In this document: in pieces, positions 3,424-13,597 of the stretch
Numbering within the stretch: the stretch's first letter is position 1
How the letters are laid out: every line of letters starts with the position of its first letter
Assembly (NCBI GenBank): GCA_025454425.1
Contig: JALOOL010000044.1
Location: forward strand, 1-37,840
DNA from: Hydrococcus sp. Prado102
GTDB taxonomy: Bacteria > Cyanobacteriota > Cyanobacteriia > Cyanobacteriales > Microcystaceae
Reading direction: 5' to 3'
DNA: 37,840 bases
The notes under the pieces: generated by a model
What the model saw: the letters and a program-made list of their open reading frames with translations, nothing else
Told to the model about the DNA's origin: nothing
Database searches by the model: none
Program-made: the position numbers and the translations under genes

Positions 3424-3545
3424 GGAAATTATGAATTATGAATTATGAAAATTAGGAGCGTGTAGGGGGAATGGTCGTACATCCGTAAATTTCTCCCTTG
3501 TCCCCCAAGTCCTAATACTTTCGACTTTCAGACGGGCTACGCCAA

Positions 3546-3609
3546 CGACTTTCGACTTTCGACTTTCGACTTTCGACTTCCCCATTCCCCATTCCCCATT
3601 CCCCATTCC
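3546..3609. repeat. two adjoining heptameric tandem repeats (CGACTTT x~5, CCCCATT x~4)
   Basis: Nearly five copies of CGACTTT (3546-3579) run directly into about four copies of CCCCATT (3580-3609) and stop at the AAGGA ribosome binding site of pixJ. Both have a 7-bp period and belong to the cyanobacterial short tandem repeat class. They would lie within the transcribed pixI-pixJ spacer. Confidence 0.85.
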
Positions 3610-11291: not shown

Positions 11292-11319
11292 GTGACAATA
11301 TATCCCAAAATAGGATAAA
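11292..11319 (+). promoter_or_regulatory. probable methyltransferase promoter with embedded 16-bp operator
   Basis: GTGACA (11292-11297) and GATAAA (11314-11319) are separated by 16 bp and read as a sigma-70-type -35/-10 pair, 40 bp upstream of the methyltransferase ATG. The box ATCCCAAAATAGGATA (11302-11317) fills the spacer and overlaps the -10. Its arms TATCC and GGATA (11301-11305 and 11313-11317) are inverted repeats. The identical box lies upstream of the regulator gene at 13582-13597. Position suggests repression when occupied. Confidence 0.5.
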
Positions 11320-11358
11320 GTAGCAGGTACTGAACTTTAAAGCCGCATACGTCAGTAC

Positions 11359-12447
11359 ATGAATCAATTCAATCTAGAAGAAAGTTCCCCAAAAACATTA
11401 AAACCTAAAGCTACTAGCACAGTTGGTCGTGGAAAAGCGATCGAGCTTAATACTAAATTAAATTTTTCTTCTTGGAGCGATGAATGTGTAGCATTGCACT
11501 TGGGGGATAGTCTTCAACATTATGATAACTGGGCGCAGCCTACTGTCATAATCTCAGATGGAGCATATGGTGTTCTTGGTTTTGAAGGAGATACTTCAGA
11601 TCACATTGATTTACCCAATTGGTATGAACCTCACATTGAAGCATGGTCAAAAGCTGCAAAGCCATACACAACACTCTGGTTTTGGAATTCAGAAATTGGT
11701 TGGGCTGTCGTGCATCCAGTTTTAGAAAAATATGGATGGCGCTACGTCAATTGCAATATTTGGAACAAAGGAAAAGGTCACATAGCAGGAAACGTAAACA
11801 CAGAAAAAATTCGCAGGTTTCCTGTGGTTACAGAAGTTTGCGTTCAGTATGTTAGAGAAGTTAAAGTTAACGAACTTTCTCTTAAAGCATGGCTGCTCGA
11901 AGAGTGGAAACGTTCTGGACTTCCATTACGACGAGCTAATGATGCTTGTGGTGTAGTAGATGCTGCAACCAGAAAATATTTTGACCAAGGGCATTTGTGG
12001 TATTTTCCCCCTCCAGAAATGTTTGAGAAGTTGGTTAATTATGCAAATGAGCATGGCAGACCTGAAGGAAAACCCTACTTTTCCCTCAATAGAGAGCAAG
12101 CCTTAACAAAAGAAGAATGGAGTAAGATGCGATCGAAATTTAAATGCCCTCACGGGTTTACAAATGTTTGGGAGCGCCAAGCTCTGCGAGGTGATGAGCG
12201 GATTAAAACTTTCTCAGGAAAAACATTACATCTCAATCAAAAACCTTTAGACTTAATGAAAATTATTATTGAAGCATCAAGCGATGCAAATGATGTAATA
12301 TGGGAGCCTTTTGGCGGACTATTCAGTGCAGCTTTTGCAGCACGTAAGCTAAATCGAAAAGCTTTTTCTTGTGAAATTGACCCAGATTATTTTTACTATG
12401 GCGTACAAAGATTCATTCAAGAAGTTCATCAATACTCTCTTCTTTGA
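11359..12447 (+). CDS. Type II DNA methyltransferase (beta-type motif order, motif IV SDGAYG)
   Basis: A 362-residue amino-methyltransferase of the N6-adenine/N4-cytosine kind. The catalytic motif IV region comes first (SDGAYG, 66-71). The SAM-binding elements lie at the C-terminus: HLNQKPLDLMK (291-301), motif I in WEPFGGLFSAAFAA (315-328) and a motif II acidic residue in CEIDPDYF. This catalysis-before-SAM order is the beta arrangement. Motif IV departs from the usual (D/N/S)PP(Y/F/W), but I recall the same DGAYG form in homologues, where the LWFWNTEIGW-type segment (here LWFWNSEIGW, 106-115) is also conserved. The gene converges on the endonuclease gene and the last 35 bp overlap. The target sequence cannot be read from the gene. 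Its role is to protect host DNA from the neighbouring nuclease. Confidence 0.85.
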   Translation: MNQFNLEESSPKTLKPKATSTVGRGKAIELNTKLNFSSWSDECVALHLGDSLQHYDNWAQPTVIISDGAYGVLGFEGDTSDHIDLPNWYEPHIEAWSKAAKPYTTLWFWNSEIGWAVVHPVLEKYGWRYVNCNIWNKGKGHIAGNVNTEKIRRFPVVTEVCVQYVREVKVNELSLKAWLLEEWKRSGLPLRRANDACGVVDAATRKYFDQGHLWYFPPPEMFEKLVNYANEHGRPEGKPYFSLNREQALTKEEWSKMRSKFKCPHGFTNVWERQALRGDERIKTFSGKTLHLNQKPLDLMKIIIEASSDANDVIWEPFGGLFSAAFAARKLNRKAFSCEIDPDYFYYGVQRFIQEVHQYSLL

Positions 12448-13330
12448 TCTCTAAATACTCCTGTAAGGCTTTCCTGATTCTATCTTCTCGACGGCTTGAC
12501 AAAAGCTTATTCCATTGTCCGACAGTCATACCGGAAACCGCAGTACTGTAGACACGTTTCTTAAATTCTTCAATGCCTGGATGCACAATTCTATCCATCT
12601 TGGCAAAATTAGTATCTAGTCTGTATTCATACCGTACTCGTAATTCGCGCAGAAGACGTTGGTATTCTCTGGTTGGTTTGTAGATTTTCCCCTCCACCCC
12701 CCATGAATCAACTACCCTTTGAGCTTCTAATAATTCCTCAACAGAACCTTGAAACTTATAACCGCTAGTGTTTGTTTGTTGCAAATTAGCTGTTCTTAGT
12801 GTTGTATCTTCTGGCTCCAAAACAAGATAGTCTGGCGGATTGTGGTAGTGTGTGTCTCTAGCCACTGCTACCGATAAACCAGAAACAACACACACATCGA
12901 GAATGCGAGGTTTTCCGTAAATGATTTTATCGGGCAGCCATGCCAATATAGCAACGTAGGTGCGATCGAAGCTGAAATGATTTTGACTATCCTTGAAGCG
13001 TGCTGTTATTTCTGTCGCTAATGGAAACCATGCTTTAATCTCTAATCCTGGCGTTGGTTGGACGCTTCCTATAAAAACAGTATCTGGAAAGCCAGGATCT
13101 TGCCGTTGCCATTTTCCAAACTCAGCAAATTCGTTCTGTTTATTTAGAAATTCGACGGTGTTAAATTCAATTAAGTTACCAAGTAGTGGTGAAAGTTTTG
13201 AAATGACTTTGGACAGATTTACGGCTGCATCCACAGTTACAGGCTTAGAAACATCGATAACATCAAAAGTGTGACTTGATAAGTCGCCTAAATAGTTAGA
13301 GGCAAGTCTGATTACGTCTTGTGTATTCAT
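12413..13330 (-). CDS. Type II restriction endonuclease, PD-(D/E)XK fold (specificity unknown)
   Basis: A 305-residue protein read from the ATG at 13330; a GTG nine bases earlier (13339) is an alternative. A plausible catalytic core is FPD (D83) followed 14 residues later by E97-I-K99 in GLEIKAW, matching PD-X(n)-(D/E)-X-K. I do not recognise the family well enough to assign a recognition site. The assignment rests on this motif, on the tail-to-tail overlap with a methyltransferase gene and on the overlap with a C-like regulator gene. Its start lies 35 bp inside the regulator gene and no SD is visible, so translation is probably coupled to that gene. Confidence 0.75.
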   Translation of the reverse strand: MNTQDVIRLASNYLGDLSSHTFDVIDVSKPVTVDAAVNLSKVISKLSPLLGNLIEFNTVEFLNKQNEFAEFGKWQRQDPGFPDTVFIGSVQPTPGLEIKAWFPLATEITARFKDSQNHFSFDRTYVAILAWLPDKIIYGKPRILDVCVVSGLSVAVARDTHYHNPPDYLVLEPEDTTLRTANLQQTNTSGYKFQGSVEELLEAQRVVDSWGVEGKIYKPTREYQRLLRELRVRYEYRLDTNFAKMDRIVHPGIEEFKKRVYSTAVSGMTVGQWNKLLSSRREDRIRKALQEYLEIKEESIDELLE

Positions 13331-13520
13331 GCTTTGCACGGGTAACTAAAATAAATTCGATGACATCTAAGCGTCGTTCGCCGTTCTCGTATTTTGCTAC
13401 AAAAGATTGCGGTTTATTAAGATATCTAGCAAGTGATTCTTGAGTTAACTTCGCTTCTTTACGAGCCGCAATCATACAGCGACGGAATCTGTCATACTTA
13501 TCGCTAAAAATAGATTTCAT
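13296..13520 (-). CDS. XRE-family helix-turn-helix regulator, probable C (controller) protein
   Basis: A 74-residue protein with a single XRE-type HTH (about 25-50: LTQESLARYLNKPQSFVAKY then ENGERR). Size, position directly upstream of and overlapping the endonuclease gene, and shared direction all fit the controller proteins of Type II R-M systems, which time nuclease expression after methylation. The C-terminal 12 residues (KHEYTRRNQTCL) lie in the region overlapping the endonuclease gene. They do not look like the usual last helix of XRE proteins, so the dimer contact may differ. A TATATA element at about 13544-13551 (minus strand) gives a possible -10, and the 16-bp box at 13582-13597 lies upstream of the weak -35. 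Confidence 0.78.
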   Translation of the reverse strand: MKSIFSDKYDRFRRCMIAARKEAKLTQESLARYLNKPQSFVAKYENGERRLDVIEFILVTRAKHEYTRRNQTCL

Positions 13521-13581
13521 TGTGCTTCAGATTTAGCACTCACTATATATAGTTCCAACACAATAAACCTGTTTTCGGATA

Positions 13582-13597
13582 ATCCCAAAATAGGATA
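13582..13597 (-). promoter_or_regulatory. 16-bp operator upstream of the regulator/endonuclease genes
   Basis: ATCCCAAAATAGGATA on the plus strand is identical to 11302-11317 in front of the methyltransferase gene. It lies 62-77 bp upstream of the regulator ATG. The probable -10 (TATATA, 13544-13551) lacks a good -35, and the box sits just beyond where the -35 would be, as an activator site would. A related GGATAATCC palindrome (13577-13585) overlaps its outer edge. Confidence 0.5.

Follow-up and report, generated by a model that had tools for sequence, protein, structure and literature searches.

Organization of the locus

The window analysed here, a 37,840-nucleotide stretch of DNA from Hydrococcus sp. 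Prado102, contains a DNA methyltransferase gene and a type II restriction endonuclease gene, which are adjacent, as in the type II restriction-modification (RM) systems controlled by C proteins. The two genes converge, with an overlap of 35 bp (Table 1). A small gene of the XRE/HTH type is located upstream of the endonuclease gene and overlaps it; in most homologues this overlap amounts to 4 bp.

N6_N4_Mtase was the sole domain found in the methyltransferase, and no HTH was detected in the protein. Its catalytic motif is unusual: SDG(A/G/P)YG is present instead of (D/N/S)PPY, and this form is shared by over 80 homologous sequences. Searches with the endonuclease against Pfam, NCBIfam and the PDB sequences matched nothing. 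Residues P82, D83, E97 and K99 are invariant in 38 homologues (52-92% identity), and the best solved structures for the model of the protein (pLDDT 87) were HincII, SwaI, NlaIV and EcoRV, with Z of approximately 7-8. Foldseek alone gave weak matches for this model (E >= 6.5e-3).

Elsewhere in the window, short tandem repeats occupy positions 267-460 and 3427-3600. They comprise 9- and 18-bp units around ACAAGGGGG/ACAAGGGAG, and heptads such as CGAAAGT and AATGGGG.

Table 1. Features of the RM module (coordinates refer to the window)
Feature	Position	Strand	Basis and remarks
Putative methyltransferase promoter	11292..11321	+	GTGACA 11292-11297; -10 GATAAA 11314-11319 or TAAAGT 11316-11321; consensus match only
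Operator OM, TATCCCAAAATAGGATA	11301..11317	+	Over spacer and -10 of methyltransferase promoter; PWM score 24.3 (matrix without window)
DNA methyltransferase, 362 aa	11359..12447	+	Pfam N6_N4_Mtase 3.4e-18; PADLOC MTase_II 7.9e-21
Type II restriction endonuclease, 305 aa	12413..13330	-	PD-x13-E-x-K; PADLOC REase_II 8.7e-48
XRE-type controller (C) gene, 74 aa, truncated	13296..13520	-	XRE/HTH_3 match; residues 1-62 homologous, then 12 out-of-frame; helix 5 missing
70-bp deletion junction in C gene	13333..13336	-	Alignment with ten homologues; approximately 2 bp ambiguity
Putative -10, C/endonuclease promoter	13542..13551	-	TATATA 13546-13551 or TATAGT 13542-13547; no recognisable -35; consensus match only
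Operator OR, TATCCGAAAACAGGTTT	13565..13581	-	16 bp from OL, over -35 position; degenerate copy; PWM score 11.2; conserved in cyanobacterial homologues
Operator OL, TATCCTATTTTGGGATT	13581..13597	-	Contains the second copy of the box; PWM score 23.6 (matrix without window); conserved

A repeated box at both promoters

The original prediction concerned a 16-bp box, ATCCCAAAATAGGATA, ahead of both halves of the module, and the box is indeed present at exactly the two positions named, 11302-11317 and 13582-13597. No further site was found in the window when up to three mismatches were allowed. In the genome as a whole (6,521,992 bases in 533 contigs) these two copies are the sole exact matches. 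A single match with one mismatch lies within a 547-codon open frame of an unrelated gene elsewhere, and matches with two mismatches are also present. The 16-mer is therefore not a common dispersed repeat, and this explanation was rejected.

Repetition as such carries little information, since repeated 16-mers are ordinary in windows of this kind (approximately 1.5 are expected by chance per Markov-simulated window). The signal lies in the position of the copies: the chance that a 16-mer is common to two given 250-bp upstream regions is approximately 4e-5. For this reason relatives had to be compared, and we consider the box to be real because it is conserved in homologous loci. A functionless chance repeat or generic motif, such as the chance 16-mers of large windows or the two-mismatch matches in the genome might suggest, is thus hardly credible in view of the position and exactness of the copies and their conservation over many genomes and several phyla.

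The full element is 17 bp long and near-palindromic, so the opposite orientation that had been ascribed to the two copies relative to the genes has little meaning. Its conserved core is CC-N7-GG, in the form ATCC-N7-GGAT in the module of the window, and the box does differ from GACT-type C-boxes, as had been proposed. A GACT-like palindrome, ACTATATATAGT (13542-13553), was considered as the true C-box and rejected, as it is not conserved in homologues.

When the window was scored with a symmetrised matrix (PWM) from whose construction it had been left out, OM and OL ranked first and second and OR third. A fourth site in the window reached 10.9, close to the score of OR, and the identification of OR is consequently supported by conservation and not by score.

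The geometry expected of a repressor site holds at the first box, which occupies the spacer and the -10 of a promoter recognised by consensus match behind GTGACA. At the second box the position suggested for an activator site is supported, but a second operator, OR, lying over the -35, had been overlooked. The plausible -10 hexamers of the C promoter place the -35 within OR, with at most three of six consensus matches. Directly ahead of the C start codon there is also a small inverted repeat, GTGCT-N8-AGCAC (13522-13539). Many homologues contain a similar sequence (AGTGCT...AAGCAC), and the repeat could be a leader hairpin or an additional site.

Conservation of the operators in related modules

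The distribution of the RM module is sporadic: 10 of the 386 sampled cyanobacterial genomes gave a match, that of the window included. The module is also found in many other phyla (roughly 52-70% identity) and on an Aeromonas plasmid. The original prediction had proposed a search for the same box beside homologous methyltransferase/endonuclease pairs in other genomes, and the box proved to be kept in homologous modules.

In cyanobacterial homologues with a C gene, whose endonucleases are 75-92% identical, a 35-bp block comprising OL and OR has been kept while the flanks have diverged. This block (TATCC-N7-GGATTATCC-N7-GGTTTAT) consists of two operators 16 bp apart (15-16 bp in relatives), and ends 31-42 bp ahead of the C start codon. 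In most cyanobacterial homologues a single OM is located upstream of the methyltransferase gene, in the same place as in the window, and is fused to the -10 (TATCCCAAAATAGGATAAA(A/G)T).

Many cyanobacterial copies of the module are decaying, with endonuclease stop codons, truncations and transposase insertions (L018, L022, L023/L025, L024, L027, L046, L047, L078 and L091).

Association of the methyltransferase box with the C gene outside cyanobacteria

Among non-cyanobacterial loci, a methyltransferase box was detected in 15 of the 22 that carry a C gene, compared with 1 of the 27 that lack it (p = 1.4e-6, Fisher test, a value which overstates independence, since the loci are related). The threshold used for calling a box was reached by 1.7% of shuffled upstream regions. 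By this matrix the remaining seven of the 22 loci with a C gene have no methyltransferase box, which indicates that OM is not universal or that its sequence is drifting. In cyanobacteria alone, where few loci lack the C gene, the association was not significant (p = 0.14). A clear methyltransferase box is also missing from Planktothrix-type loci that have no C gene (L019, L037 and L038); in another locus (L033) the box is kept though the C gene is missing.

These data bear on the possibility that, as in SsoII and other self-regulating systems, the methyltransferase itself binds the box, or that the box is the sequence which the RM enzymes recognise and acts as a methylation sensor. A palindromic box located on the methyltransferase promoter would suit either version. 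Yet the box is missing from 26 of the 27 non-cyanobacterial methyltransferase loci that have no C gene, the methyltransferase has the N6_N4_Mtase domain and no HTH, and the same class of box is located ahead of RM systems with differing enzymes (a BglII-like system, a BsaWI-like fusion and another fusion, described below). Because boxes of this class accompany the C gene and are also present ahead of other RM systems, we rejected both versions as very improbable, and regard the box as an operator of the C protein.

A wider class of operators

Related boxes were found ahead of XRE homologues in at least three other RM systems. A profile search with the C protein in cyanobacteria revealed homologues that adjoin other enzymes. 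One such system (L146 and L149) encodes an 82-aa C protein and a BglII-like endonuclease, and carries the same half-site variant at both promoters, with AAACC-N7-GGTTT as OL and TAACC-N7-GGTTA as the methyltransferase box. In another system (L136/L148), with a 292-aa C fusion, there is a pair of sites, TATCCTGTTTTGGGATA/TATCCCATATTAGGATA, and a third lies at the start of the methyltransferase. A single box precedes a 390-aa fusion (L142/L147) that includes a BsaWI-like endonuclease domain. The Aeromonas plasmid carries a tandem pair of boxes just ahead of the likely true start of the C gene. The occurrence of this class ahead of several RM systems is strong evidence against the view that any single RM enzyme has the box as its target.

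Two side observations concern these loci. Fusion genes of the C-endonuclease type (292 and 390 aa; L133, L136 and L142) have CC-N7-GG boxes upstream and are convergent with a methyltransferase gene. In L107:3178-3504 (NZ_CP080631.1), on the Aeromonas plasmid, the annotated start of the HTH gene is probably some 27 codons too early, so that the annotated gene spans the operators.

It is tempting to suggest, as a tentative proposal, that CC-N7-GG represents an undescribed class of C-boxes, read by a widespread family of controllers with the signature PQS(F/Y)V(A/S)KYExGERRLD. Such a class would occur in several phyla and in at least four unrelated RM systems, C-endonuclease fusions included, with half-site variants (ATCC and AACC) on which the C and methyltransferase promoters of a given system agree. 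C proteins determine if a new host is killed or protected by an RM system that enters it. It has also been reported that C proteins sharing an operator make RM systems incompatible (PMC3874152). If the proposal is true, the CC-N7-GG class would offer a specificity code that is already in place, together with a set of immunity switches incompatible with one another. The shared operator class would allow predictions of which systems activate one another and of the protein residues that read ATCC as against AACC half-sites.

Truncation of the controller gene

The 74-aa protein had been put forward as the regulator of the system, but it is a derivative, truncated by a deletion, of a protein of 86-87 aa, the length of the full-length cyanobacterial C homologues compared. 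The distance from the C start to the endonuclease start is 190 nt in the window versus 260 nt in cyanobacterial homologues. This difference corresponds to a clean 70-bp deletion after approximately codon 62, downstream of which the frame is shifted. The deletion could be an assembly error. A search for relatives with the same deletion in three other genomes of the genus gave no match to the C-gene region.

In the model of a full-length C homologue (pLDDT 91) helices span residues 7-22, 27-33, 38-45, 53-63 and 67-86. The fold of this model matches C.Esp1396I (Z approximately 12, residues 6-80) and C.EcoT38IS (11.1), as well as C.BclI and C.AhdI. The window protein retains helices 1-4 of this five-helix fold and lacks helix 5. 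The C-terminal part of known C proteins takes part in the formation of the dimer. This has been described for the Csp231I class (PMC3115060). Judging from the model, the 74-aa protein probably cannot dimerise, and the loss of helix 5 indicates that the controller switch is probably dead in this strain. No second intact C gene that might act in trans was found in the genome at E <= 0.001. Loss of C usually abolishes endonuclease expression (PMC3874152), with exceptions such as Csp231I (PMC4824078).

Alternatively, the 74-aa protein might still be a working controller, whose helices 1-4 bind OM, OL and OR as a weak dimer or a monomer. These helices, which include the entire DNA-contacting region, are undamaged and in frame, and in this strain OM, OL and OR are all well preserved. 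Against this, helix 5, which is part of the fold matching C.Esp1396I, has been swapped for 12 unrelated residues, and the operators may have had too little time to decay. We therefore regard a functional 74-aa controller as unlikely. The truncation also means that a gel shift with the 74-aa protein, which had been suggested as a check, may well fail.

Proposed regulation of the module

Taken together, these data make it very probable that the boxes are the operators of a C-protein switch in a convergent type II RM system, and that this switch has probably been put out of action here by the loss of 70 bp of the C gene and, with it, the last helix. The sequence data establish the positions of the sites, their conservation, their co-occurrence with the C gene and the truncation in the sequence given, and the fold of a full-length homologue is predicted. 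We infer binding of the operators by the C protein, activation from OL, repression through OR and OM, an order of affinities among the sites, and a functional loss by truncation.

In intact relatives entering a new cell, the methyltransferase promoter would be free and the host DNA would become methylated, while the C protein would build up slowly from a promoter without a -35. A C dimer at OL would then recruit RNA polymerase and switch on the C and endonuclease genes. At a higher level of C, a second dimer at OR would mask the -35 and turn the operon off, and a dimer at OM would mask the -10 of the methyltransferase promoter, thus reducing methylation. In the strain examined, the methyltransferase would be unrepressed and the endonuclease uninduced. 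The predicted switch governed by one small protein accordingly stands in so far as the box is tied to the XRE gene; a working switch in this strain is improbable, its controller being truncated. The truncated copy may be viewed as a natural test of the fate of an RM system after the loss of its controller.

Comparison with known systems

The operator of the window matches neither the GACT nor the CTAAG-N5-CTTAG sites, nor those of Kpn2I, HsdC and RptR. The CC-N7-GG class was found nowhere in the literature searched, a comparison in which the motif catalogue of Sorokin (2009) is not included. Kpn2I, the mollicute HsdC and RptR (PMC6237814, PMC5282649, PMC12255303) resemble the present controller in being small, in regulating RM genes and in having non-GACT sites. 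They differ in their sites and modes of action, namely an elongation roadblock, GTGTTA direct repeats, and TAGCTA with a type I RM system.

The EcoO109I/Csp231I class (Sorokin motif 8; PMC3115060, PMC4824078) likewise has non-GACT inverted-repeat operators placed in tandem ahead of the C gene. Its half-sites are CTAAG-N5-CTTAG, with operators approximately 18 bp apart, and its 98-aa protein has two extra C-terminal helices (seven in total), in contrast to the 87-aa five-helix model obtained here. Moreover, the Csp231I endonuclease has C-independent promoters.

By sequence, the closest named C protein is C.EcoT38IS (PDB 2ef8), with a phmmer value of 6.6e-06 for the window protein and 31% identity in the structure alignment; no description of its operator was found in the literature searched.

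The arrangement of sites most closely recalls Esp1396I (PMC4041747, PMC3758141). Its operator is GAC-TATA-GTC, unlike the CC-N7-GG found here, identity to C.Esp1396I by structural alignment is approximately 16%, and the OL/OR spacing of 16 bp (15-16 bp in relatives) is a further difference. In both systems, nevertheless, OL and OR precede the C/endonuclease operon and total 35 bp, with OR as part of the -35, and a single OM lies at the methyltransferase promoter (the window promoters being consensus matches only). C.Esp1396I and the model of the full-length homologue share the five-helix XRE fold (Z approximately 12). With OR over the -35 beside OL and OM, the module thus conforms to the familiar OL/OR/OM layout.
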